Assembly (NCBI GenBank): GCA_015493585.1
Contig: WGCW01000124.1
Span: 1-37,621, forward strand
From: Acidobacteriota bacterium
Lineage (GTDB): Bacteria > Acidobacteriota > Thermoanaerobaculia > Thermoanaerobaculales > Sulfomarinibacteraceae
DNA: 37,621 nucleotides
Direction of reading: 5' to 3'
A program made the position numbers and the translations under genes. Positions 1,909 to 34,726 of this stretch are shown here, one piece after another. Under the pieces are notes generated by a model. The model did not search any database, was not told the origin of the DNA, and was given only the letters and a program-made list of their open reading frames with translations. Position 1 is the first letter of the stretch. The number at the start of each line of letters is the position of its first letter.

Positions 1909-2841
1909 TCACGTGAGGTCTGAGTTGATCCGGTCCGCTTCCAAGATGCCGGTAGCCAGGACGCGATAGCTGCGGAATCGTTCCGGGTCGATCTCTCCCG
2001 CTTCGGCGGCCGCTTGAACGGCGCAGTCGGGCTCATGGAGATGGGTGCAGTCTTGAAAACGGCACAAGCCAGCCCGGCTGGCGATCTCGGGGAAAGCTGC
2101 CTGGAGATCGGGAAGCGTGAGGTTCCAGAGCCCGAATTCCTTGAGCCCCGGCGTGTCGACGACGAACCCCCCGCCGGGAAGCGGCAGCAGCTCGGCCCGG
2201 CTCGTCGTATGACGGCCCTTGCCCGTGGCCTCGGAGATCGTGCCGACGCGGAGCCGGAAACCCGGGTAGACGGCGTTGAGCAACGAGGACTTTCCAACGC
2301 CCGATGGACCACAGAAGAGGGTCGTCTGTCCAGAAAGCGTTCGCGTGATCTCACCGAGACCGCGCCCCGTTCGCGCGGACGCCAGCATGACGGTGATCCC
2401 GAGATCCCGGTAGAGCGCGATCCAGGGTTGGACGGCGTCCGATCCAAGATCGGCCTTGTTGAAGACCAATGTAGGGTCGATCCCGGCGTGATGACAGGCC
2501 ACCAGAAAACGGTCTATCAGGCCTCGCTTCGGCTCTGGACGCTGACACGCAAAGACAATCAGCGCCTGATCGACATTTGCCGCGAGGACCTGGGCCCGCC
2601 GCCCGTGCGTGGCTTGCCGGTACAGGGCCGTCCGCCTCTGACGCACCCCCTCGATGACGCCTTCACCGCGCCGCATCTCGATGATGACGCGATCCCCGAC
2701 CACGAGGCGGGGCACTTCGGGCATGCCGCCTTCCCAGCGCAATCGTCTCCTGGCAGCGACGACCAGCGTTCGGCCTTGGACCTGGACCCGCACCAGGGGG
2801 CCATGGGTCGCGATGACGGTGCCTTCGACCGTTCCAGTCAT
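1909..2841 (-). CDS. rsgA: ribosome small-subunit-dependent GTPase A
   Basis: This is RsgA/YjeQ, a circularly permuted GTPase that acts in late maturation of the 30S subunit. The 310-residue protein has an N-terminal OB-fold (about 1-65). The GTPase motifs come in the permuted order: G4 NKAD at 128-131, G1 GPSGVGKSS at 178-186, G3 DTPG at 229-232. A C-terminal zinc knuckle uses Cys260, Cys265, His267 and Cys273. All key residues are present. It is the last gene of a four-gene minus-strand operon. An ATG at 2865, one base after the upstream stop, would add eight residues. The ATG at 2841 is preferred because MTGTVEG is the natural family start and a TATACT hexamer lies six bases before it. Confidence 0.96.
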   Translation of the reverse strand: MTGTVEGTVIATHGPLVRVQVQGRTLVVAARRRLRWEGGMPEVPRLVVGDRVIIEMRRGEGVIEGVRQRRTALYRQATHGRRAQVLAANVDQALIVFACQRPEPKRGLIDRFLVACHHAGIDPTLVFNKADLGSDAVQPWIALYRDLGITVMLASARTGRGLGEITRTLSGQTTLFCGPSGVGKSSLLNAVYPGFRLRVGTISEATGKGRHTTSRAELLPLPGGGFVVDTPGLKEFGLWNLTLPDLQAAFPEIASRAGLCRFQDCTHLHEPDCAVQAAAEAGEIDPERFRSYRVLATGILEADRINSDLT

Positions 2842-2847
2842 GGGATC

Positions 2848-2853
2848 AGTATA
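2848..2853 (-). promoter_or_regulatory. -10-like TATACT, leaderless start of rsgA
   Basis: Read on the minus strand, TATACT is followed by GATCCC and then the ATG at 2841. A -10 hexamer six bases before the start codon would place the transcript start at the ATG itself. No convincing -35 is seen. It would give rsgA expression independent of the long envelope operon upstream. Confidence 0.45.
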
Positions 2854-2866
2854 CCGTTCGGCCATC

Positions 2867-5800
2867 TCAATGACCCCGGTGGCCCCGTGGAATCAACCGG
2901 GGCGGCTGCGTCGTGATCTGATCGACGCTGTGGCAGAAGCGCACGAAATCCTGATACTTTGCCGCCGGAACGACGCACGCGGGGATGTGGAGCGTGGTCA
3001 CCGAGCTGACCGCCGGCCCCTTCGCCGTGACGATGCGGCTGACCCGGCCCCAGTCGCCTGCAAACGTCCGGGACCTCATGTTGACCACCCATCCGGGCGG
3101 CGGCGTCAGCTCGACATCGATCCGTTGCTCGACCGGGAGCTGGAGCACCAGCGGGTATTTGCGGGAGGGGAGCGAGGCGAGGCGGGGGGAGAGCGGCCGG
3201 GCCATGATGAGCGCCCGGCATTCCATGGCATCGCCGGATGGTGTGCAGGCCTGCGGCAGCTGGAGATCGAGGCCGAGTGCCACGCCGCCGTCCTTGTGCT
3301 CGATCGTGCCGTTGACCTCCTCGGCACCGGGGAAGAGCCTTGCAGCCACCTGATCGTAGATCATGTTGACCCGGTCGATCGGTACGGAGCTAACCATCTT
3401 GTACATCCGTTCCCCCTGGGCGCCACGAAGCAGGATCTGGTAGGTGATGTGGGCCGCGCCCGATATACCGATACGGGCTCGGAGGCTGACGTCCTCCTCA
3501 AGCCCTGGGTTGGGAAAGCGGGGGAGCCTCTCAAGGTAGCGGACCGGGAGAGTGGGCGACGTCAACGGCAGCACGTACCCGTCGCTGCCCTGCAGGATCG
3601 GGCGGATGTGTCCAACCCCATTGCGGCCCTCATTGATGTCGATCCAGATGGAGGTGCCGCGGTGGCTGACGCGGAGCACCGGGATCACAAAGGTATCGAA
3701 ATTGGGGACCTTCAACTGGGTGTGGGCGAACGCGAGCGGCCGGGTCATGACGAGGTCAACATCCCAGCCAGCATGCTTGAGGACGGCGATCAGGATCCCA
3801 AGCCGGTTTCCCTTGGCGAGCGAGAAGCTTTCCCCGGCGGTTTGACGGACGTTGAGGTTGCTGTCACCGGTATCGACCTTCTCGACGAGCGCTTTGACCA
3901 GCCGGGTGAGCGCGGCATGTGGATCTTCGCCTTTGAGCAACCCTGCGGCCCAGCGCCACAGCTCGGGGCTGCCCGTGAGGGCGCCCAGGACGCGATTCCG
4001 GATCGCGTCCCCAATGTCCTGCCAGCTCACGCCGAAGCCGTAGGTCACCCACGGCAGGAGCTGTTGGCTCGGCGGTGAGAACGGCTCTGAAACCACCGGT
4101 GGAACCTGCGTCGCTTTCCAGCTGAGCACATGGAGGCCATGAAGGATCGTGTCCGTGTGCTGCAATCCGGTGAAGTTGCCATCGATGTTGAGCTTGAGAT
4201 TGGGGGGTACGAGCAGCGTGTACTCGGATCGTACGAACGTCCGTGTCGCGCCGGAGAACCGGTAGATATACGGTGAGACGTGCCCCCGGTGAGATGAGCC
4301 GGTCGCCGCGATCGGCGCGACGTACTCGTGCTCGACCATGTCGCCTGGATCGACGTTCTTCAAGACGACCTGGGCGTTGTCAGCGCTGATACCGGGTGGG
4401 ACGATGATGGAGCCATCGGCCTTGATAATCCGGACCTTGAGGAGGACCGCCCCGGGGAGAAGCGGAATCGTCGCCGCATCCTTGACGCCTGCCGGCGTGA
4501 GCGCCTTGGTCAGCCCGTGGTAGTAGTACAGGCTCGATCCGTCCCCGAACACGCGCTCGACCGCCTGATCGAGAATCAGTGCGGAGTCGACACCGTCTGT
4601 GGGGACGGGGTGCGTTGCGGCAAAGGCCAACGCGTCGATCTGGAATGGCTTGAAAAACGGCGTCAGGCGCTGGCGCCAGGCGAGCGATCTCAGCTCGAGA
4701 TCGGAGGGGTGCCGGCCGAGGGTGGCTAGGACGCTCTTGGCGAGGGCGTCTTGGCCCTGCTCCGCCGCAAGGACGACGCCGAGCTGATCCGTGCCGTCCC
4801 AGCGGCCCCACGCGGCGATCGTCGACCGTAACTGCGCTTCGGCTTCGCCGGTTTTGCCAAGCCGGTTCAGGAGCCGGGCGATCCCAAGATCGAGCTTCGG
4901 GTCGTCCATCAGCGTTTTCTGCCGGCGCAGCACGTCGAGCGCGAGATCCTCACGCCCTGCGGCAACGAGCAGATCGACGGTGTCTGGGGCGAGCTGGTCC
5001 GACGCAGCGAGCCCCTCGATCACACGGTTGCGATCGGCCCACCGTTCTAAAGCCCGGTCCACGTTGAGCCGGAGCCGGGCAACCCAGCGTGATCCGGGGA
5101 GCGCTGACTGGAGTTTCTGCAGGGCCCGGCTCGCCTCGCGAACCCAACCCCTCCGCACGGCGGCTCGAATCCACAGGCGAAGCACCCGCGGATCGTTCGC
5201 GTGCCGGTCGACGAGCGTGTCGAGAACCGTTTCTGCATCCTGACTCCGGCGTTGACGGCGGTCTAAAGCGTGGGCGATCAGAAGGCTCTTCGGGAGCGTC
5301 GCGCACGCAGCGAGCTGCTTCTGGCACCGGCGGTAGTCGACTTCGGCCGCAGCCCCCGTCGGCTCATCAAGAAAATACTCGGCCAGCGCCAGGTGGACCT
5401 CGGGCCCAGGCGCGGGGGCGGCTTGCGCCATGTCGAGCCATTTCCGCGTGGCGAGAGGATCGCGGCGGATGCCGGCGAGCTCGGCTGCAAGGAGTGCCCC
5501 CTGAACGCCGCCAGCCGTCCGTGCCTTCCGGTCGAACAGGGACTCGGCCGGTGGCAATGATGGTTCGGTCTCTGAGGATGCCAACGGCCCGCCGGACGGC
5601 TTAGACAGGACGTGCACAGGGATCCCGCGGCCTTCACGATCGAGCAGGGAGACGCGCACCTCGGGCATATCGGGCGACGCCATCTCGATGCGGAGACGGT
5701 GCTCCCCCGCCCCGAGCCGCAGCCGGTACCAGTGAATGCCGGCCCCCAGGTTGCCGCAATCGCTGGCCATTCCTCTCGCCTTCCCATCGAGCTCGAGCCG

Positions 5801-6454
5801 GTATGTGCCGGTCGCCTCGACAACGAGCCAGCCGTTGGAGACCTCCGGCGCGGTGAAACTCCACGCTGCCAGATAGACGCCCGGCGCTGCGAACGGTTCA
5901 GGCGGGCGGGCCGCGCCGTCGGGCGTCCGGATGATCAGCCGGAATGGGTGTTCCGGGCCGTCCCAACGGCTTCCAAGGGGGGGCAGGGCGCGGTCTGCAG
6001 GGGCGGCGTTTCGCAGGATGTCGAGGGTGTCATAGCTGCCGAATGGCCCCGAGAGCTCAACCGGCCGCACAACCCCGCGCGGGGGCCTGCGGAGGAGCGC
6101 CGCCTCAATGCGGTCGATGAGGAAGCTAACCTCGGGGTCCCGGCTGCCCGTGGCGGCGCCGAGGATCTCGTCCGGCTCGGGGATCACCTGAATATTGGCG
6201 AGCCACCACCCCGCTGCGGCGACGGCGGCCGCCGAGTGTGGACGCATCTTGACGATCCCAAGGGCGGTCCGCCGGGCGGCCCGGAGGTCGAGGTTCGCGT
6301 CGGCACGTACGAGGGCGCTCCAGCGTGCACCAGCCTCGGGATGGGATGCCGTGGGGGCCTTTGCGGCTTTGGCGGCCGGTATCGAACCCGCGAAGACCCC
6401 ACCGGTGATGCTGAGAGCGACGACGAGGAAGCAGGAGGACCAACGCCGCATCAT
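2867..6454 (-). CDS. DUF3857-type protein with dead transglutaminase fold
   Basis: This 1195-residue protein has a signal-peptide-like N-terminus (MMRRWSS then a hydrophobic stretch to about 30). A beta-rich segment follows (about 130-275), then helical TPR-like repeats (about 310-600), a DUF3857-like beta domain (about 610-790) and a transglutaminase-like fold (about 850-950). Against the upstream paralogue, the catalytic Cys position holds Lys881 (FSLAKGNRLG) and the His position holds Thr921 (NFDTFVI). Only the Asp (WIDI, Asp939) remains, so cysteine chemistry is not expected. It overlaps the upstream gene by 4 bases (ATGA) and ends one base before the alternative rsgA start, so co-expression is likely. 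A binding or scaffolding role in the periplasm is inferred. Function unknown. Confidence 0.85.
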   Translation of the reverse strand: MMRRWSSCFLVVALSITGGVFAGSIPAAKAAKAPTASHPEAGARWSALVRADANLDLRAARRTALGIVKMRPHSAAAVAAAGWWLANIQVIPEPDEILGAATGSRDPEVSFLIDRIEAALLRRPPRGVVRPVELSGPFGSYDTLDILRNAAPADRALPPLGSRWDGPEHPFRLIIRTPDGAARPPEPFAAPGVYLAAWSFTAPEVSNGWLVVEATGTYRLELDGKARGMASDCGNLGAGIHWYRLRLGAGEHRLRIEMASPDMPEVRVSLLDREGRGIPVHVLSKPSGGPLASSETEPSLPPAESLFDRKARTAGGVQGALLAAELAGIRRDPLATRKWLDMAQAAPAPGPEVHLALAEYFLDEPTGAAAEVDYRRCQKQLAACATLPKSLLIAHALDRRQRRSQDAETVLDTLVDRHANDPRVLRLWIRAAVRRGWVREASRALQKLQSALPGSRWVARLRLNVDRALERWADRNRVIEGLAASDQLAPDTVDLLVAAGREDLALDVLRRQKTLMDDPKLDLGIARLLNRLGKTGEAEAQLRSTIAAWGRWDGTDQLGVVLAAEQGQDALAKSVLATLGRHPSDLELRSLAWRQRLTPFFKPFQIDALAFAATHPVPTDGVDSALILDQAVERVFGDGSSLYYYHGLTKALTPAGVKDAATIPLLPGAVLLKVRIIKADGSIIVPPGISADNAQVVLKNVDPGDMVEHEYVAPIAATGSSHRGHVSPYIYRFSGATRTFVRSEYTLLVPPNLKLNIDGNFTGLQHTDTILHGLHVLSWKATQVPPVVSEPFSPPSQQLLPWVTYGFGVSWQDIGDAIRNRVLGALTGSPELWRWAAGLLKGEDPHAALTRLVKALVEKVDTGDSNLNVRQTAGESFSLAKGNRLGILIAVLKHAGWDVDLVMTRPLAFAHTQLKVPNFDTFVIPVLRVSHRGTSIWIDINEGRNGVGHIRPILQGSDGYVLPLTSPTLPVRYLERLPRFPNPGLEEDVSLRARIGISGAAHITYQILLRGAQGERMYKMVSSVPIDRVNMIYDQVAARLFPGAEEVNGTIEHKDGGVALGLDLQLPQACTPSGDAMECRALIMARPLSPRLASLPSRKYPLVLQLPVEQRIDVELTPPPGWVVNMRSRTFAGDWGRVSRIVTAKGPAVSSVTTLHIPACVVPAAKYQDFVRFCHSVDQITTQPPRLIPRGHRGH

Positions 6455-9400
6455 GGGGCCTCCAGCCGCTGGGAGAATGCCCGCTGAGCTCGTAACAAGA
6501 AGGCGCGAAACGCGGCGATGCGATCGACCGTCAGCAGCCCGGATGTCATATGGAAGCGGCCGGAGATCCGGTACCCGCCCGGCGTCGCGTCGACCGTGAC
6601 GTGGAGCGTTCCAAAGGGACCAGCTTGCTCAACCGGCGCCGGGAGCGGTCCGGGCGCGCGCCCAAGGTTGACCGTCGTTGTCCATACAAGATCCGGACGG
6701 AGCGGCACGAGCAGCGGCGAATGCCGCGTTTGGGCGGGCGCCAAGCGTGACAGCAGCGAGAGCTTCCCAGGGAACACGTGGACGCCCCCATCGCCGGCGA
6801 CCGCGGCCCGTGGCACGACACCGTTCAGCGTCATGGAGGCGGGATCCTGTCCGGGCGAGATCGAAACCTCCGGTTTGCCCGTCAAGCTCGCTCCGGGGAA
6901 GAGCCCCTGGAGCCAGCGGGCGAAGCGGATCCGGTCCTGACTGCCGCCGAATTTTGAACGGAGGGCAGCGGCGGCATCGCCGGTCGCCGTCACGTGAACA
7001 GAGATTTTGAGCGCGCTGGCAGCACCGGGTGCAAGCTGTATCTGCGTCTTGGAGGTTCCGGCACCGGTGACGGGCGTCGTTTCCGGAGCGCTTGATGGCC
7101 CGCGAACGACGAGGGCGAATGCCCCCTGGTCGAGCCCCGGCGGGCGGAATGGATCGTACCCGGTCGCCGTCCCGTCGAGCCAGAGGTGATCGTCCGGAAG
7201 GTAGGCGATCGCGTGGTCGAAATCGCCGAGCACGGCCAGTGTCGCCCTGACGGGGCCGAGATCGGCCGTCCGGACGAGAACCATGTGTGCCTGGATGCCG
7301 ATCGAGTGACAGAGCGCAACGAGGAGGCACGCCTTGTCCTTACAGTCGCCCATCTTGTGGGACAGCACCCAGTCGGCCGAGAACGGGCGGTAACGGTGCT
7401 CGCCGAACTCCAGCGCCACGTAGCGGATCCGGTCCGTGACGAAGTGATACAGAGCGGCGATCTTCGCACGCCTGGTTTTGAGGCCGTCGGTCAGCGCATG
7501 GGCCTTGTCCTCGACGAGCTTGGAAGGACGGATCCGGGGCGCCACGTGGCGCGCGTACCAGCTTCCCAATTGTCCCCAGCTGGGGTGATTGGAGTAGGCG
7601 AGGTACGGGACCGTCAGCATCGGGGGCGGTGCCGGGATGTCTCCGGGCGCTTCCGGCAGCTTCGTCCAGGTCCAGGTGAGGTGCACGATGTGATCGGGTC
7701 CGGTTGTCTTGACCGGTTTTCCTGAGAGGTTTGCCAGCTCCCAGCGAGGGATGGCGCCGGCGGGTCCTGAGAGCTCAATCTCTGCCCTGGCGACCGGCAT
7801 GTCGTTTGGGATCATCACGATGCCACCGGTGTACGGTCCGGTTTCATTCGACTCGGCGGTCTCCGAGAGGATGTAGGTCAGCTCGATCAGGTCGCCCCGT
7901 TGCAGGCTGGGGTACTGAAAGACCCGTAACCGCGAGTCGTAGTACATGTTGATCGCGGGATCGGCCAGACGGGGTGAGTCCGACTGATTCGCACTGATCT
8001 CGCCGCCTCCGGGTTGGAGAATCCTCGCAGCCAGCACGCGGAGCCGTTCACGTTCAGGAACGTAGGCGACCGTCATCTGGCGGAGCGCGTCGGACCTCTT
8101 GGGATCACCGACGCGGATGACGCGCTGGACCCGCTGCTCAGTCAGGTTGCCGGGCAGAAACCGGATTTCGTGGTGTTCGAGAACCGTGACCGCCCGGTCT
8201 CCCGTGAGACCGGCCGCCATCTTGCGCAGCTCGGCTGGCTTGCGCCGCCACGTATCGTCTTCCTGAGCTGCACCGAGGAGCTTTTGGAACCTCTGCGCGT
8301 TCGCGTCCTGCGGACGCAGTGAGAGGAGGCGGGCGACAAGCTTCTTGGCGCGTTGGTCGTGACCCCTGTAATGTTCGAGGCGCATCGCTTCGGCGAGGAG
8401 GTCCACCTGATCCGGGCAGCGCCTTAGCCCCTCGTTGAGGATCGAGGCGGCGTGCGACACCTTGCCTTCGGCAACGAGGAGACGGGCCAGCCTCCCGGAT
8501 CCGGCTGGCCGGTTCGGATCCTGCGCCAGCGCGAGCTCGGCGATCCGGTCGAGCGCCGCCGCATCACCGAACGTCGCCGCCCGCTTCTGTTCCAGGCCGA
8601 TGGTATCGGCGAGCCCCGGAGCGAGCGTGCCAAGGAGCGTCAGCCCCCTGGCAACATCCTTGTAACGGCCGGCATCCATCTCTCGAGAGGTCCACATCAG
8701 GACGGCATCCAGGCACCGCGGATGCGCCGTGGCCAGGGCTTCGAGCTTGGGAAGCACGACCGGTCCCCACCGGTCTGCCGCAATATCGAGATCGGCGGCC
8801 CTCAGCGCGGGCTCGTTCCCGCCGGCCGTGAGGAGCTTGTGCGCTTCCTCGTCAAGATCGTGGCCGTGGTACCAGCGGGCCAGCACCAGGCGTGCCCCGG
8901 CGAGACCGGGGTCGAGATCGAGTGCCGTTGTCATCAGCGTGTAGGTTGCTCCCGGTTCATCGGTGACGAGGGCTTCAAGCAGCCGCGCCCCGGCAGGGTC
9001 ATCGGCGCGAGCGGCCTGACAGGCCTGCCGGGCAACACCGGAATCTGCCGCATTGGGCCGATGGCGGACGAGAAAAGCCGCTTTGGCCATCAGCGCGCCG
9101 GGAGTGCCGGCTTTGACCGCAGCATCGATGACCGGCCCGAGCGACCGGATCTGGGGGGGCGCCGCACGAACCGCTGGATACTCGTGCGGAGGCGCATCGG
9201 TCTCGTGGGTTCCCTCAAGCGGTGCCCCATCGGGCTTTGTCAGCCGGACTCTCGCCCACCATCCTCCCTGTTCACAGCCTACCGCCACAACGATGAGGTT
9301 TGGTCCCCGCCTCAGCCACGCACCGGCGTTTGCCTGATCTTCGCCCCTTTCGAGCGGCTCCGGCGTTGTCAGGAGCTGCCGGCCGTTGAGCCAGACGCGC

Positions 9401-9981
9401 GCGGCCTCGGCTGCACCAAGACGCACGGCAACCGGCTGCCGGTGCTCACTGACCACGGTTGTGGCCAGGAAAATCATCTGACGATCCGTCGGCCACGCAA
9501 GCCCCGGCAATCTGACCCATCCGAATGGATCGGTGCCTGGGGTGAATCGCCAGTGGGCCTTGGGCCCGGGAAGGTGCGCCGATGTGGCAAAATCGGCCAG
9601 CTCTCCGAGCGGTTGCGGTCCCAAGACCCACCACCGGGTCAGCCCGCCCATCGTCTGGAAGAGCGCGCGCGCCTGGTCCCAGTGACCGTTGGCAACGGCG
9701 ATCCGTGCCCTGAACGACCGGACCTCGTCAGCCATCAGCGGATCGATAGGCCGCGTGGCCGTCAGACGGTCCAACGCCCCCGTCAGCCAGCCCCGGTCGG
9801 CCAGATCACGGCGCCAGAGGAATGCCAGCACGAGGTGCTGCTCGTCGAGCGGGCTCAATCCATTCTTGAGCGCTGCATCAACGTGGTGCTCAGCGTACGC
9901 CTGGAACGAGCCGGCAGTGGCACCGGCCGCCGCGAGCAGCACGGCGGCTCCAAGAGCGAAGTGTGTGAACCTATTCATCAA
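6451..9981 (-). CDS. DUF3857/transglutaminase-like secreted protein
   Basis: This 1176-residue protein has an N-terminal signal peptide (about 1-24). A beta-sandwich-like segment (about 115-255) contains VWLNG and LIVVAVG. A helical TPR-type region spans about 285-570, a DUF3857 domain about 590-790 and a transglutaminase core about 840-945. The catalytic triad is complete: Cys880 in GDCKDKA, His923 in FDHAIAYL, Asp936 in LWLDGTA. A beta-rich tail (about 985-1150) resembles the C-terminal part often following DUF3857. Family knowledge gives a papain-like fold. The reaction (amide cleavage, cross-linking or peptide transfer) and substrate are not known. Its start overlaps the end of htrA by 11 bases and its end overlaps the next paralogue by 4, so translational coupling is likely. 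Confidence 0.88.
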   Translation of the reverse strand: MMNRFTHFALGAAVLLAAAGATAGSFQAYAEHHVDAALKNGLSPLDEQHLVLAFLWRRDLADRGWLTGALDRLTATRPIDPLMADEVRSFRARIAVANGHWDQARALFQTMGGLTRWWVLGPQPLGELADFATSAHLPGPKAHWRFTPGTDPFGWVRLPGLAWPTDRQMIFLATTVVSEHRQPVAVRLGAAEAARVWLNGRQLLTTPEPLERGEDQANAGAWLRRGPNLIVVAVGCEQGGWWARVRLTKPDGAPLEGTHETDAPPHEYPAVRAAPPQIRSLGPVIDAAVKAGTPGALMAKAAFLVRHRPNAADSGVARQACQAARADDPAGARLLEALVTDEPGATYTLMTTALDLDPGLAGARLVLARWYHGHDLDEEAHKLLTAGGNEPALRAADLDIAADRWGPVVLPKLEALATAHPRCLDAVLMWTSREMDAGRYKDVARGLTLLGTLAPGLADTIGLEQKRAATFGDAAALDRIAELALAQDPNRPAGSGRLARLLVAEGKVSHAASILNEGLRRCPDQVDLLAEAMRLEHYRGHDQRAKKLVARLLSLRPQDANAQRFQKLLGAAQEDDTWRRKPAELRKMAAGLTGDRAVTVLEHHEIRFLPGNLTEQRVQRVIRVGDPKRSDALRQMTVAYVPERERLRVLAARILQPGGGEISANQSDSPRLADPAINMYYDSRLRVFQYPSLQRGDLIELTYILSETAESNETGPYTGGIVMIPNDMPVARAEIELSGPAGAIPRWELANLSGKPVKTTGPDHIVHLTWTWTKLPEAPGDIPAPPPMLTVPYLAYSNHPSWGQLGSWYARHVAPRIRPSKLVEDKAHALTDGLKTRRAKIAALYHFVTDRIRYVALEFGEHRYRPFSADWVLSHKMGDCKDKACLLVALCHSIGIQAHMVLVRTADLGPVRATLAVLGDFDHAIAYLPDDHLWLDGTATGYDPFRPPGLDQGAFALVVRGPSSAPETTPVTGAGTSKTQIQLAPGAASALKISVHVTATGDAAAALRSKFGGSQDRIRFARWLQGLFPGASLTGKPEVSISPGQDPASMTLNGVVPRAAVAGDGGVHVFPGKLSLLSRLAPAQTRHSPLLVPLRPDLVWTTTVNLGRAPGPLPAPVEQAGPFGTLHVTVDATPGGYRISGRFHMTSGLLTVDRIAAFRAFLLRAQRAFSQRLEAP

Positions 9982-11317
9982 GCGGGAATGTCAGGTTATA
10001 GGCGTACCGGCCGCGGCCGATCACGAGGAGGACCGAGCTCGCATCGGGTGCCTGGCGAAGTACCTTGTCGAGATCGGCAACCGATCCGATCTGCTGCCCG
10101 TGGACGGCGAGGACGAGGTCGCCCGGTTCAATGCCGGTCTTGGCCGCTGGGCTGCCGGGAACGACGCGCCGGACAACGACCCACTGAGCGCCATTTCCAA
10201 CGATGAGCCCAAGATACCGGCGGAGGATCTCCTGGCCGATGTCGGCGGGAGGCATAACCGGAGCGACGCCGATGTGAACCTTGCCCGCGGAGCCGAGCAC
10301 GGTCAGATGAATCGTGCCGCCAGGCGCCAGTGAGGCCATCGCCGTTCGGATCTGTGCGGGTGTGGTTGCCCTGCGGCCGTCGACGGCGACGATGAGATCC
10401 CCGCGGTGCAGACCGGCCTTCGCCGCCGGAGAGCCGGGGAACACCCGGCGCACCAGGATGCCGCGGCTCCCCGTGTCGAAGAGCCCGCCGGTATTTTCAC
10501 GGGTCGCAACCGAGCGGAGAATGGCGCCAAGCCACAGTGGTCTGACGTGCCCAAAGTGGAGCAGATCTTCGACCACCCGGTAGGCGCGCGCAGCAGGGAT
10601 GGCAAAGCCGATGCCCTGAGCTGAGGCGATGATTGCCGTATTGATCCCAGCGAGTCCGCCAGTAATGTCAACCAGAGCTCCACCGGAGTTGCCAGGATTG
10701 ATCGAGGCGTCGGTCTGGATGAAGTCGGTGTACGTCCGGCCAGACCGTGGTGACGTGACGGTCCGGTTGAGAGCCGACACGACGCCGGACGTGACGGTGG
10801 ACTGGAGCCCGAACGGGTTACCGATGGCGATCACAGTCTCGCCGACCATCAGATCGTGGCGAGGCTGGAGCTTGAGGAACGGAAGGTGCGTCGTTCCTCG
10901 CGGGAGCTTCAGCCGCAGCAGTGCCAGGTCATTCTCGACATCAGAGCCAACCAGTGTGGCCTTCAGCGCCCGGCCGTCGACCAGCGTCACCCGGATTTGC
11001 GAGGCGCCTTCGACGACGTGCTCGTTCGTCAACACGTAGCCGGAAGGCCTAATGATGACCCCCGAACCCAGCGCCTGAGTTTCCTGGACCTGGTCTCCAT
11101 CGCCCCACATGTCGGAGAAGAGCTGATCGAACAGACTCCGGCGGGGCGCTTGCACGATGCTCAGAGCGCTGATGTTGACGACGGCTGGGCGGACCTTCTG
11201 GACGACCCGCACCACCGGGCTGCGGCGAACGTCGATGCTGGACGGGGCCGCGAACGCCGTCAAAGGGATGACCACCGCCACACACGAGATGAAACGGGCA
11301 AATGCTCGATGCTTCAT
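9971..11317 (-). CDS. HtrA/DegP-family serine protease with two PDZ domains
   Basis: This 448-residue periplasmic protease/chaperone belongs to the Deg family. A signal peptide (about 1-24, ending LTAFAAP) is followed by a trypsin-like domain with triad His100 (NEHVVEG), Asp130 (ENDLALL) and Ser211 (NPGNSGGA). Two PDZ domains follow, at about 265-350 and 355-445. All catalytic residues are intact. The family degrades or refolds misfolded envelope proteins. It is first in an operon with two large secreted transglutaminase-type proteins and rsgA, suggesting envelope quality control. An in-frame start at 11368 exists, but the ATG at 11317 begins a clean signal peptide and has CATACT six bases upstream, with no Shine-Dalgarno. 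Confidence 0.95.
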   Translation of the reverse strand: MKHRAFARFISCVAVVIPLTAFAAPSSIDVRRSPVVRVVQKVRPAVVNISALSIVQAPRRSLFDQLFSDMWGDGDQVQETQALGSGVIIRPSGYVLTNEHVVEGASQIRVTLVDGRALKATLVGSDVENDLALLRLKLPRGTTHLPFLKLQPRHDLMVGETVIAIGNPFGLQSTVTSGVVSALNRTVTSPRSGRTYTDFIQTDASINPGNSGGALVDITGGLAGINTAIIASAQGIGFAIPAARAYRVVEDLLHFGHVRPLWLGAILRSVATRENTGGLFDTGSRGILVRRVFPGSPAAKAGLHRGDLIVAVDGRRATTPAQIRTAMASLAPGGTIHLTVLGSAGKVHIGVAPVMPPADIGQEILRRYLGLIVGNGAQWVVVRRVVPGSPAAKTGIEPGDLVLAVHGQQIGSVADLDKVLRQAPDASSVLLVIGRGRYAYNLTFPLDE

Positions 11318-11323
11318 CCAGGC

Positions 11324-11329
11324 AGTATG
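11324..11329 (-). promoter_or_regulatory. -10-like CATACT, leaderless start of htrA
   Basis: On the minus strand CATACT, then GCCTGG, then the ATG at 11317. The spacing of six bases equals that at rsgA, the HD-GYP gene and the pentapeptide gene. There is no Shine-Dalgarno and no good -35. Predicted transcription start at the A of ATG. Confidence 0.4.
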
Positions 11330-11375
11330 CCAGATTTCGCCGCGCAGTGGGAGCCGCATCAGCCGCACAGCCGCG

Positions 11376-18635: not shown

Positions 18636-19760
18636 TCAGTACCTGAGAAGGGCGGCGATTTCATCGACCTCCTTGAGCTTCTTCGCTGCCGGTCCGTCAA
18701 CGACCTCGACCTGCCCGCCCATGCCGATCGTGGCTTGGGTCAGCCGGTCGACGAGATGGTCGACCGGCTTGGTTGATGCACCGCAGAGCTGGCACTTCTG
18801 GTCAGGATGCGCGGCGATGGCACCGCAGGCAGGACACTCGGCACCGCTGGCCTCCAGCCCCTTGACATAGAAGAGCTTCCAGATCCGGCCCTGGTTTGCG
18901 GCCTCGATGACCGGTTCCATACCCGCGATCGCCTTGCCCCCTTCGTGCAGCTCGGAGAAGAGCCCTTCGACCTGTTCGAGCTCCTGTTCACGTTCGATCT
19001 CTCGCTGCGTTTCAATGGTCCGTTCAAGGACCTCCTGAGGTGCAGCGGAGACGGACATGCTCAGTGTCTTGACCAGCTTCCCGTGGAGTCGCGTGGGGAG
19101 GAGACGGGCAAGCTCCGAGGCGGCTTCCGTCGGCCCAGCTACGAGGAGCCTGTCGAAGGGCGTTCTCAGGGACAGATCGTAGAGCGCGTCGACGACACGT
19201 TTCACGTGGAGAGTGACCTCATGCTCGTGCCGGCGCTGAAAACGCTTCTGGGACCACCAGTGGTCCGTTCCGGTCGTTTGGGTTTTCATCGAGGTGGGCG
19301 AAATCAGGTCGGTATGCTCGGTGATTTCGCCCATGAAGACTGTGAAGATCCTCGCCCGGTTCTTGTCGGAGAGGACAACGGCGTACCGTTCATGCTCGTC
19401 CAGCGCTTCGACGATTGGGCGAAGATGCGCACCCCGTCTCCAGTGAACGGAGGGGGGCATCGCGACGCGGACCTGATGCACCTCGGCAAGCTCCTTCGAG
19501 GGGTTGACAACGACGAGGGCGGTCCGGCCGCTCGGTTCCATGTCTGTGATCACACGCATGGCGCGCTCGGCGGCCTCGGACAGCTCCGGATCGTCCGGGT
19601 TGGCAGACCTGAGCTCTTTGAGCATCGCCTCCGCCTGGGTTTCGAACCCGCGCCGCCGGTTCGACGCCTTATTCTGGTCGATATCCAGGTACATTGTCAG
19701 GGTCTTTGGTTCTCCTTCGGTGAGCCGGCGCAACCGCCGCAGAACAGCACGATCGATCAT
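18636..19760 (-). CDS. eRF1-like protein, baeRF/Vms1-type ribosome-rescue candidate
   Basis: This 374-residue protein has the three-part plan of archaeo-eukaryotic release factor 1 relatives found in bacteria. The N-terminal domain is at about 1-115. The middle domain (about 122-205) contains HWWSQKRFQRRHEH, where Gln171 could stand in for the Gln of the eRF1 GGQ loop. The C-terminal domain (about 205-374) carries a zinc ribbon (Cys309, Cys312, Cys323, Cys326) and the eRF1-like ending VEVVDG...DEIAALLRY. Relatives hydrolyse peptidyl-tRNA on stalled ribosomes. Whether this one does is inference. GGGAGG lies before the ATG at 19760. It follows the methylase gene by 74 bases. Confidence 0.75.
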   Translation of the reverse strand: MIDRAVLRRLRRLTEGEPKTLTMYLDIDQNKASNRRRGFETQAEAMLKELRSANPDDPELSEAAERAMRVITDMEPSGRTALVVVNPSKELAEVHQVRVAMPPSVHWRRGAHLRPIVEALDEHERYAVVLSDKNRARIFTVFMGEITEHTDLISPTSMKTQTTGTDHWWSQKRFQRRHEHEVTLHVKRVVDALYDLSLRTPFDRLLVAGPTEAASELARLLPTRLHGKLVKTLSMSVSAAPQEVLERTIETQREIEREQELEQVEGLFSELHEGGKAIAGMEPVIEAANQGRIWKLFYVKGLEASGAECPACGAIAAHPDQKCQLCGASTKPVDHLVDRLTQATIGMGGQVEVVDGPAAKKLKEVDEIAALLRY

Positions 19761-31459: not shown

Positions 31460-33130
31460 TCACTGGCCCGAGTTCTCGTTATCAACGACGAACGTCCTCT
31501 GACCGATGTAGTTCTTGCCCCCCCAGTAATCAACCGCCCGGATGACCAAGGTGTGCTGCCCGTCCGCCAGCTTGGTCGTATCAAGAGCATAGGTGTAGCC
31601 AACGGAGTTGACGTTGAAGGGGATCCACGGGAAGTTCTCGTGCACCTCGGGTGACGGTGTACCGTAGGTCGCCAAACCCATTAACGTGCCGTCAACGAGG
31701 ACCTGCACATTCTGAACAGAACCCATCGAGTCGGTTGCCCAGCCCGTGACCTGGTACGTGCCGCTGACCCGCTCCATGTTGGTGGGCGTGTAGATGTCGC
31801 CGAATGCCGGGATGTCCGGATCGTTGTCACAGTCGAAGATCACGGGGATCGTGGCGATGTTGGCCGTGTACCCCGCGACGTCGCCGGCGCGAACCGTCAC
31901 ATAGTGGAGCCCTTCGTTGAAACCGTGGTTGAACAACAGGTCCTTGACGTTGACGGCGAATCTGAAGCCACAGTCCTTCGCGTTTGGCACGTCGGGGAAG
32001 AGCTTGAGGATGTCGGGCCGCTCGAGGCCGTAGTAGTTCATGTCGAGGTTGAAGGGGTTCGGTGCGTAGACTTCATCTGTCTTAGTGCTCAGCAGCGGGC
32101 CGCTCCCATCGATGTAGAGCTCGAGCCACGCCACGCCGCCCGGATCGGTGCGGCTGCCAACATCGAGCGCCCAGCCGGAGACGATCATCCACTCGCTCGT
32201 GTCCTGGAAGCTTGGGCCGGACCATCCAGCGGCGCCGTTTGAACAGCCGGTGATGTAGACGTAGTGGTTGGCAATCGGCCACTCGATCCTGCCGAACGGC
32301 GGCAGGTTCCGGCCGTTGTTGAAGATCTGCACGAACCGTTGCCCGATCACCCGGGACGCGCCCTCGTCATCCCACAGCCGGACGGCGAGCGTGTGGACGC
32401 CGTTTGGGAACGTCGTTGTGTTCACCATGCGTACGAATCCGGCATCGGCGCTCCCCGGCACGGCCGGAAACCTGTTGTGGATGTCCGGACGGGGCATCCC
32501 CATGTTGGCGCCCCCAATGGTCTGCCCGTCAATCAAAACTTCGACCTTCGTCACTTTGCTGTCGTCCAGGGCCCAGCCGGTCACCGGGAAGACGCCGTTC
32601 ATCGGTTGCGCCGGACCCGGCATATCGATCTCGCCGAACGGCGACTGGTTGAGGCTCTTGTCCACGATGACTGTTCGCGTTCCAAAGTCCTCCTGATCGC
32701 CGTTGGCAAACCGGACCCGCACGAAGATGACGTGGGCGCCGTCCGTCAAACTGTCGGCATTGAACGACGTGCTGAATCCGGGGCGGGCGTTGATCGTCGC
32801 CGAAAGCCACGGATACGCCTGGAGCACGTCGTACCGCGGTTCATTGAGGTCTGCACTGGCCGTGTAGACCCCATCGACGTAGAGATCGATCTTGCTGATC
32901 CCGCGCGGATCGATGATCCAGCCCTTGACCTCCACCGCGCCGGCGACCGTTGCGTTCTCGGCGGGTGAATCGAGCCAGAACATGGCGTTGACCGTCTGAT
33001 CTGCAGGCGAGGCTACCGTTACGCCCTTGACGCCCGGCACCGAATTCCGGGCCGGTTTCGCCGCGTTCGCCGAGACCAGGGGCAAGGTCAGCAATGATAC
33101 GAGTGCCAGACCGATCGCCGTATGACGCAT
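31460..33130 (-). CDS. secreted protein with four Ig-like repeats
   Basis: This 556-residue protein has a signal peptide (about 1-23, MRHTAIGLALVSLLTLPLVS) and four tandem beta-sandwich repeats of about 100-125 residues. Each repeat has V-x-GW-x-x-D, then a short strand with V-D-G or I-D-G, then R/S-P-D/E-(I/V) and (F/Y)P, and a closing G-x-H-(T/V/Y)-(L/V/I). Repeat 3 (about 285-415) carries an insertion (STKTDEVYAPNPF). No cell-wall or autotransporter signal is visible. The ATG at 33130 has AGGAGGT eight bases upstream. Family resemblance is to bacterial Ig-like domains used for adhesion or ligand binding. Role unknown. Confidence 0.9.
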   Translation of the reverse strand: MRHTAIGLALVSLLTLPLVSANAAKPARNSVPGVKGVTVASPADQTVNAMFWLDSPAENATVAGAVEVKGWIIDPRGISKIDLYVDGVYTASADLNEPRYDVLQAYPWLSATINARPGFSTSFNADSLTDGAHVIFVRVRFANGDQEDFGTRTVIVDKSLNQSPFGEIDMPGPAQPMNGVFPVTGWALDDSKVTKVEVLIDGQTIGGANMGMPRPDIHNRFPAVPGSADAGFVRMVNTTTFPNGVHTLAVRLWDDEGASRVIGQRFVQIFNNGRNLPPFGRIEWPIANHYVYITGCSNGAAGWSGPSFQDTSEWMIVSGWALDVGSRTDPGGVAWLELYIDGSGPLLSTKTDEVYAPNPFNLDMNYYGLERPDILKLFPDVPNAKDCGFRFAVNVKDLLFNHGFNEGLHYVTVRAGDVAGYTANIATIPVIFDCDNDPDIPAFGDIYTPTNMERVSGTYQVTGWATDSMGSVQNVQVLVDGTLMGLATYGTPSPEVHENFPWIPFNVNSVGYTYALDTTKLADGQHTLVIRAVDYWGGKNYIGQRTFVVDNENSGQ

Positions 33131-33183
33131 TGTCCTACCTCCTCAAGTCGCAACCACTCCATTGAAACATCCGTCACGGCTAT

Positions 33184-33211
33184 CTTATACCACAAGGGGA
33201 AACCCGGTCAA
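33184..33211 (-). promoter_or_regulatory. candidate promoter of the Ig-repeat gene
   Basis: On the minus strand -35 TTGACC (33206-33211), 16-base spacer, -10 TATAAG (33184-33189). The -35 lies in a tandem direct repeat of 9 bp, so a second TTGACC exists 9 bases further upstream. A leader of about 45-50 bases with a strong ribosome site follows. Confidence 0.6.
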
Positions 33212-33221
33212 ACCGGTCAAA
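33204..33221. repeat. tandem 9-bp direct repeat in promoter
   Basis: CCGGTCAAA occurs twice head-to-tail (33204-33212 and 33213-33221), overlapping the -35 region of the Ig-repeat gene and lying 66 bases before the pentapeptide gene. Adjacent direct repeats of this size are common binding sites for activators, but no protein is indicated. Confidence 0.5.
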
Positions 33222-33274
33222 CTTTCAACGTGCTGTGCCATTGGTTTTTCCTCGCCTTCCCGGCGGCGAAGCGG

Positions 33275-33280
33275 CATAAT
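33275..33280 (+). promoter_or_regulatory. -10-like CATAAT, leaderless start of pentapeptide gene
   Basis: CATAAT, then AGATCC, then ATG at 33287. This is the same six-base spacing as three other genes in the window. No Shine-Dalgarno and no -35 is seen. Confidence 0.45.
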
Positions 33281-33286
33281 AGATCC

Positions 33287-34726
33287 ATGGCGAACGAGGA
33301 CCACCTGCGGCATCTCGATGACGGGACGTGGGAGACGTGGCGGGCGCAGCACCCGGCCCTTGCGCCGGATCTGATCGACGCTAACCTTGCCGGGCGTGAC
33401 CTCCGGGGGCTCGACCTGAGCAAGGCTCATCTGCGGAGTGCCAACCTTTCGCACGCCGCACTCGATGGTGCTGACCTGACCCACGCCGTTCTCGAGGGCG
33501 CCGATCTCGCCGGTGCTTCCCTCAAAGGGGCCAGGCTGGACCGCGTGCACCTGGATTTTCTCAACCTTTCCGGGCTCGACCTTTCGAACGCTTCGTTTGA
33601 GGGCGCAACGTTCCGCGGTACCGTCTTACGCGGTGCGACGTTGCGTGGTGCCAAACTGGACCGCGCCCAGCTCGATGGCGCGATTTTCGACGGCGCTGAT
33701 TTGACCGGCGCCTCGTTGCTCAGCACGGTGTTGCGCGGCGCGAGATTCGACGAAAGCGTGCTGACGCAGGTCAACGCGGAGGGAGCCATCATGGATGGCG
33801 TCGAGCTCGTTGGGCTCGACTTGAACGGGGCGATTCTGCGCGGCGCACAGGCCGACAACGTTCAACTCAGCACATCCGATCTCACCGGCGCAGACCTCTC
33901 GGGTGCTTCGCTTCACGGCGCGAACTTCCACGGTGCCCGCCTGACCGGAGCGAAGCTGACGGATGCACGGTGTCAAGGTGCAAGCTTCGATCATGCCAAC
34001 CTGGAAAAGGCTTCCCTGGTCAACACCAACCTGACCGGTGCGGATCTCAGGGGAGCGAGCCTGCTGCACGCGATCCTTGACGGCTGTACCCTGGCAGATG
34101 CCCATCTCAGCGAGCTTGACTTTCGCTCCCCACAGCTCGGCAAGCTCTCATTTGCCTCAGCTGATCTCAGTAAAGCGGTTTTCACGGGCTGTCAGCTCCG
34201 CACCTTCAACTTCCGCAGGGCCAACCTGGAGGAGGCCGACCTCAGGGAGGCCAACCTGGAGGGGGCCGATCTCAGGGAGGCACGGCTCGCCGATGCCACC
34301 TTCCGGCATGCCAACCTCAAACAGGCCAAGCTTGAAGGGGCGCTGGCCCCCGGAGTGGATCTCTCCGGCACCAACCTGATTCTTGTTCAGGCGAAGAGAG
34401 CCAACTTCGAGGGCGCCGACCTGAGATTTGCCGATGCGATCGGGATCGATCTCGAGGGCGCCAACCTGCGGTGGTCCGACTTGCGGCACGCCGATCTCAG
34501 CAAGGCCAATCTCACGCATACCCGGCTGTGGGGCGCGCGTGTCCGGGCCACCAAGCTGCCCCTTGGCATGGTGCACTGGCTCGCCATCCTCTGGTTTACC
34601 CAGCTGTTCGGCAGGTGGAAGAAACGGTCTGAACACGCCCGGCAGCTCCGCGAACGCAAACGCGTGATGGAAGTCGCCCGAATGGTCCGCAAGCGGGAAT
34701 CATCTTCTCGCCGCAGACCCCGCTGA
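33287..34726 (+). CDS. large pentapeptide-repeat protein
   Basis: This 479-residue protein is nearly all pentapeptide repeats (A(D/N)LXX; for example ADLAGASLKGARLDR, ANLEEADLREANLEGADLR) from about residue 28 to 425, enough for about 20 turns of a right-handed quadrilateral beta-helix. A break occurs near 165-195. After the helix comes a hydrophobic segment (MVHWLAILWFTQLFG, about 427-441) and a strongly basic tail (RWKKRSEHAR... to RRRPR). A membrane-anchored or nucleic-acid-touching tail is possible. Some family members mimic DNA and protect gyrase; that role is not shown here. ATG 33287 is chosen over the longer frame from 33122, which overlaps the Ig gene promoter. The next gene starts 7 bases later. 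Confidence 0.93.
   Translation: MANEDHLRHLDDGTWETWRAQHPALAPDLIDANLAGRDLRGLDLSKAHLRSANLSHAALDGADLTHAVLEGADLAGASLKGARLDRVHLDFLNLSGLDLSNASFEGATFRGTVLRGATLRGAKLDRAQLDGAIFDGADLTGASLLSTVLRGARFDESVLTQVNAEGAIMDGVELVGLDLNGAILRGAQADNVQLSTSDLTGADLSGASLHGANFHGARLTGAKLTDARCQGASFDHANLEKASLVNTNLTGADLRGASLLHAILDGCTLADAHLSELDFRSPQLGKLSFASADLSKAVFTGCQLRTFNFRRANLEEADLREANLEGADLREARLADATFRHANLKQAKLEGALAPGVDLSGTNLILVQAKRANFEGADLRFADAIGIDLEGANLRWSDLRHADLSKANLTHTRLWGARVRATKLPLGMVHWLAILWFTQLFGRWKKRSEHARQLRERKRVMEVARMVRKRESSSRRRPR

Follow-up and report, generated by a model that had tools for sequence, protein, structure and literature searches.

The window, that is, the whole 37,621-nt stretch of DNA that was analysed, comes from an acidobacterial MAG of the Thermoanaerobaculales, in the family of Candidatus Sulfomarinibacter. 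Four genes on its minus strand follow one another in the transcription order HtrA, A, B and RsgA. Gene A (6451..9981, minus strand) encodes a putatively secreted TPR-DUF3857-transglutaminase-fold protein of 1176 aa carrying Cys880, His923 and Asp936, and gene B (2867..6454, minus strand) encodes a full-length paralogue of 1195 aa, a predicted pseudoenzyme whose transglutaminase-like domain has no Cys. The start of B overlaps the stop of A by 4 nt in an ATGA (6451..6454, minus strand), and a GGAGG resembling a ribosome site lies inside the last codons of A, ahead of the B start. The start codon of A is a TTG with an ATG directly after it, so that the true start may be one codon later. The preliminary description of this locus had given both reading frames with these positions, lengths and overlap, as well as a common order of segments in the two proteins (signal peptide, beta domain, TPR-like region, DUF3857 and transglutaminase fold), and all of this was borne out. 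Read by eye, both N-termini are hydrophobic and signal-peptide-like, indicating that A and B could be exported to the periplasm. Upstream lies a gene for a serine protease of HtrA/DegP type that has two PDZ domains (9971..11368, minus strand), a neighbour only, which overlaps A by 11 nt; the RsgA GTPase gene downstream of B (1909..2865, minus strand) is probably incidental. Farther along the window, a baeRF_family10 (bacterial archaeo-eukaryotic release factor family 10) protein is encoded at 18639-19760 on the minus strand, and a 534-aa protein made mostly of pentapeptide repeats at 33122-34723 on the plus strand, head to head with the gene of a Big_7 Ig-domain protein (31463-33130).

Protein A has the features expected of the catalytic member. 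In Pfam, its DUF3857 domain (PF12969) scores 64.1 bits against a gathering cut-off of 24.6, its Transglut_core domain (PF01841) scores 42.4 bits against a cut-off of 23 (E 9e-11), and TPRs are found. The transglutaminase-like domain (7099..7584, minus strand; about residues 800-961) contains the motifs GDCKDK (Cys880), FDHAIAYL (His923) and LWLDGTA (Asp936). Across the A-B pairs collected here, Cys880 is kept in 40/40, and His923 and Asp936 in all 39 readable relatives, so that the triad proposed earlier is upheld by both the Pfam match and its conservation. A would catalyse cysteine-dependent acyl transfer on a papain/transglutaminase fold, perhaps as a protease, deamidase or cross-linker, reactions among which sequence and fold do not decide.

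Protein B keeps the domain architecture and has lost the catalytic residues. Its DUF3857 domain reaches 33.1 bits in Pfam against the same gathering cut-off and its TPR match is weak; PF01841 gave no match at E<=1, so that of the two families named in the preliminary description DUF3857 is found in both proteins and Transglut_core in A alone. In the transglutaminase-like domain of B (3560..4057, minus strand; about residues 800-965), the Cys place reads SLAKGNRLGI, with Lys881 followed by Gly882-Asn883-Arg884, the His place reads FVIPVLRV (Ile924), and the Asp is kept in IWIDINE (Asp939). Lys881, Asp939 and the absence of the His had been recognized before; the His place, formerly assigned to Thr921, fits better three residues on at Ile924, because Phe921 of A, in its F-x-His, aligns with Phe922 of B. 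The same domain of B was searched for a substitute Cys, and none was found. Gap placement near the Cys place varies among alignments, but this is immaterial since 20 of the 21 family copies of B have no Cys anywhere in the domain. No B has a Cys at the catalytic place in any of the 40 pairs, the residue there being Q in 13, R in 13, E in 8, K in 3 and others in 3. The motif after it is well kept (Gly882 in 40/40, Asn883 in 32/40, Arg884 in 38/40), and Asp939 is retained in 29/40 and lost in 11. Within the family, the Cys place is occupied by K, R, Q, A or D, with Gly882 and Asp939 invariant. Judged by sequence, B shares fold and profile with the transglutaminase core without being an active member of it.

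B was compared with other family models as well. The inactive-transglutaminase Pfam model of RloB type gave no match in B, and the predicted secondary structure of its model consists of TPR-type helices and beta domains without a C-terminal seven-helix part, so that B would not belong to the inactive transglutaminase 7TM family. NCBIfam returned no family above cut-off. For DUF3858 (PF12970), the window proteins have no Pfam match, one B relative (L163) scores 40.5 against a cut-off of 27 and others are weak; the C-terminal part of PDB 3KD4 matches B 1083-1148. The N-terminal beta domain shows only weak matches, in relatives, to domains of carbohydrate proteins (CE2_N, E 0.007; RhaB_D2, E 0.03). 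In the C-terminal domain of B, Cys1070, Cys1079 and Cys1174 are invariant in the family and missing from most copies outside it; they likely form a disulfide.

Profile-profile alignment joins residues 72-1185 of B to residues 44-1173 of A in 997 columns (probability 99.3, E 7.6e-21), which makes B a full-length paralogue of A and no chance neighbour. Both proteins were modelled with AlphaFold2 (mean pLDDT 82 for A and 88 for B; pTM 0.57 and 0.83, the A model being the less certain). In the two models, helical repeats occur together with a beta-rich domain around residues 170-270, the DUF3857 domain, the transglutaminase fold and, at the C-terminus, a further beta domain. Among PDB entries, each model is matched best by 3KD4 (Foldseek E 3.3e-19 for A and 2.2e-19 for B), the DUF3857-transglutaminase-DUF3858 protein BDI_1141 of Parabacteroides distasonis, annotated as 'putative protease'; B 621-1189 aligns with it at VIA Z 20.7 and rmsd 6.3 over 465 residues. 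By this structural match, the C-terminal halves of A and B have the DUF3857-transglutaminase fold of 3KD4, whereas the 505-residue chain of 3KD4 has neither the N-terminal beta domain nor the TPR body of A and B.

The pair also occurs in other genomes. A locus search with B alone as query gave no match; a B-family profile search named the family and one Myxococcota relative. All 20 searched family genomes carry A directly followed by B, at 21 loci, one genome having two. A full-length B-type match was sought in the sister family and the rest of the class sample, and none was found there. With the B profile, the full-length pair was also found in four further Acidobacteriota families, f15, f16, f41 and f73, which belong to other classes, and with the B-family profile on one Myxococcota contig (L104). 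The total is 40 pairs (21 family loci and 19 outside the family), spread over five Acidobacteriota families and the Myxococcota contig. Named carriers are MAGs of the Thermoanaerobaculales and other Acidobacteriota, including Candidatus Sulfomarinibacter kjeldsenii, and the isolate FeB_10. The order A-B holds in 40/40, and so does a B start codon at -4, counted over 18 family junctions, three family junctions on split contigs (G001, G018, G004), for which the overlap was taken from ORF coordinates, and the 19 others, a few of which have an additional alternative start at -7 or -10. A 4-nt overlap alone is weak evidence, since other genes of the window overlap likewise (25589-26959/26956-28971 and 26956-28971/28968-30467). 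The 19 non-family pairs, with both genes readable, keep the triad in A and have no Cys in B. The Myxococcota B retains the His and lacks Cys and Asp; its gene (3991-7827) encodes, read by eye, a lipobox-like LTGC near the N-terminus, and this dead partner may be membrane-anchored. One MAG has two A-B pairs on two contigs (L064 and L081, on G019 contigs C9 and C108), which may reflect a duplication or a mixture of strains (65% complete, 3% contamination).

The flanking genes vary from family to family. Of the 17 family genomes whose upstream side can be read, four (G000, G001, G007, G009) have HtrA ahead of A; it is absent there in the other 13 and in other families. Downstream of B, 19 of the 20 family genomes have RsgA; outside the family it was sought beside the pair and not found, and f15 and f41 share another downstream gene, whose product resembles, by eye, a cyclic-nucleotide-binding protein. 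HtrA and RsgA as members of the unit were ruled out by this comparison of neighbourhoods: A and B alone travel together. The recurrence of the pair in relatives, which the preliminary description had proposed to survey next to htrA, is confirmed for A and B, and the htrA neighbourhood is limited to those four of the 17 readable family genomes.

The dead twin is an old and maintained gene. Compared with the nearest genome (dS about 1), B has a dN/dS of 0.18 and A one of 0.15 (0.14 in the C-terminal fragment); three closer pairs give 0.10-0.14 for B and 0.09-0.15 for A. Purifying selection acts on B much as it does on A, and the reading frame of B is intact in every complete copy; decay in close relatives, which would have spoken against a functional pair, was not seen. 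A maximum-likelihood tree was built from 91 rows of the DUF3857-transglutaminase region by a quick method with SH-aLRT support. It places A in one clade and B in another, each with support 100, and inner branching is alike in the two, f15 going with f41 and f16 with f1. The separate clades indicate that the duplication is old. Over 36 loci, the pairwise identities among A proteins correlate with those among B proteins at r=0.98; within the family (15 genomes), the partial correlation with RsgA removed is 0.91. The rows of the two identity matrices are related, so that the correlation supports joint inheritance and is no proof of contact.

Tandem arrays of other DUF3857 genes in Acidobacteriota show a comparable asymmetry. 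Loci read with their flanks comprised 20 tandem candidates, 20 strong matches listed as single, and L079 and L104; the loci were drawn from the top of the phylum's DUF3857 match list, and their sequences are not independent. Of the 24 arrays in which two or more members could be typed, 22 have exactly one intact Cys-His-Asp copy, and solitary DUF3857 genes are intact in 16/16 (Fisher p 6e-5, binomial p 4e-5, descriptive values for related, top-of-list sequences). The exceptions, L119 and L120, come from one genus and have two dead copies each; in arrays of this genus (g62: L119, L120 and partly L117), both members lack the catalytic Cys. Several other arrays (L106, L111, L124, L137, L143) resemble A-B in having an intact copy beside at least one Cys-less copy, but they differ in that their genes mostly encode 520-700 aa without the long N-terminal half and belong to separate clades. 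The dead members of other arrays require three state changes on the tree, of which well-supported branches force at least two. At L137 (G149:C1, 1123-9322), two adjoining 1360-aa DUF3857-transglutaminase proteins are sisters on the tree, one intact and the other with Val/Phe at the Cys/His places, which is a recent and clearly separate loss. Live and dead sisters at L137, together with the forced changes, imply that the side-by-side state arose more than once. A triple array at L142 (G244:C11, 4407-10002) has an intact enzyme followed by two Cys-less copies (S-D-D and R-D-D).

An old, adjacent dead twin that selection has kept is most economically explained as a non-catalytic subunit, comparable with M16B heterodimers and MPP. 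We consider it rather probable, from the sequence comparisons, that A and B constitute an obligate pair of enzyme and pseudoenzyme, ancient in origin, in which B binds A and holds the substrate or gates the active site, and A and B would probably form a heterocomplex. A would be the catalytic subunit, a cysteine acyl-transfer enzyme in the periplasm; B would have lost its catalytic Cys long ago, kept the whole fold and gained its own conserved Gly-Asn-Arg motif at the Cys place, and could bind A via the common TPR/DUF3857 body. Translational coupling at the 4-nt overlap would provide similar amounts of both. Against this main reading, the correlated divergence may stem from shared inheritance, and B could act alone. 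An unlikely reading, though one with evidence in its favor, takes B as a separate binding protein, co-transcribed and in one pathway with A without a stable complex, whose old cleft with Gly-Asn-Arg binds a peptide, glycan or cell-wall ligand. The conserved motif in the former active site, the TPR body and the weak likeness of the beta domain in relatives to carbohydrate-protein domains would suit such a binder, but it does not itself explain why pseudo members stand beside an intact copy in nearly all arrays while solitary genes are uniformly intact.

That B is an enzyme with other, non-cysteine chemistry in a remodelled cleft appears improbable: polar residues are indeed conserved (Q/R/E/K at the Cys place, then G-N-R, and Asp939 in most pairs), but seven different residues (Q, R, E, K, H, A, D) occur at the Cys place, the His place is variable as well, and Asp939 is missing from more than a quarter of the copies. 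More doubtful still is a single envelope quality-control machine of HtrA, A and B, to which the overlap of HtrA with A in the window and its few upstream occurrences in the family lend some color, but which is at odds with the absence of HtrA beside most family pairs and in other families. The proposal that an enzyme and a pseudo-enzyme of matched length are kept as a unit therefore stands for A and B, given the 40 pairs, the undecayed B and the lack of a replacement Cys, and fails for HtrA. A decaying duplicate hitch-hiking beside A would account for the lost catalytic residues, but this has practically no probability left, since frames are intact, purifying selection on B is near that on A and B has been retained since before the split of several families; decay is refuted by dN/dS and the intact frames.

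The pairing of an enzyme with a pseudoenzyme is familiar from eukaryotes and from a few peptidases of bacteria. Neighbouring genes encode the bacterial M16B proteins TTHA1264/TTHA1265, whose products form an active heterodimer, two subunits are needed for the active enzyme of SPH2681/SPH2682, and in mitochondrial MPP alpha/beta the homologous alpha subunit is a non-peptidase without the catalytic motif (PMC12731061). These systems have an unrelated zinc-metallopeptidase fold and serve as mechanistic analogues only. RloB, a bacterial envelope protein functionally and genetically tied to a neighbouring protease gene, resembles B in its dead transglutaminase domain, which in RloB faces the periplasm (PMC12239564). 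It differs in being a membrane protein of another family without DUF3857 or TPR, partnered by an aspartic protease and an ATP-grasp protein and by no active paralogue (PMC12239564). The DUF3857-transglutaminase family has the papain-like cysteine-enzyme fold (PMC10318531 for the superfamily). Functionally it is almost blank: among 5.39 million openly available papers searched, a single one mentions the domain by name, and no description of the A-B pair was found in this literature.

Our results raise the wider possibility, held with somewhat less than even confidence, that secreted DUF3857-transglutaminase enzymes have repeatedly entered obligate asymmetric complexes in independent lineages, in which a dead paralogue encoded next door, in the present case one with a Gly-Asn-Arg motif in its cleft, selects the substrate or switches on the catalytic subunit; this would be a widespread two-subunit system of periplasmic cysteine enzymes, undescribed in the open literature searched. 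About half of the genes in such arrays would be non-enzymes despite their DUF3857-transglutaminase appearance, which is a warning for annotation. Together, the cross-class pair and the repeated dead partners turn DUF3857 into a testable two-component system.
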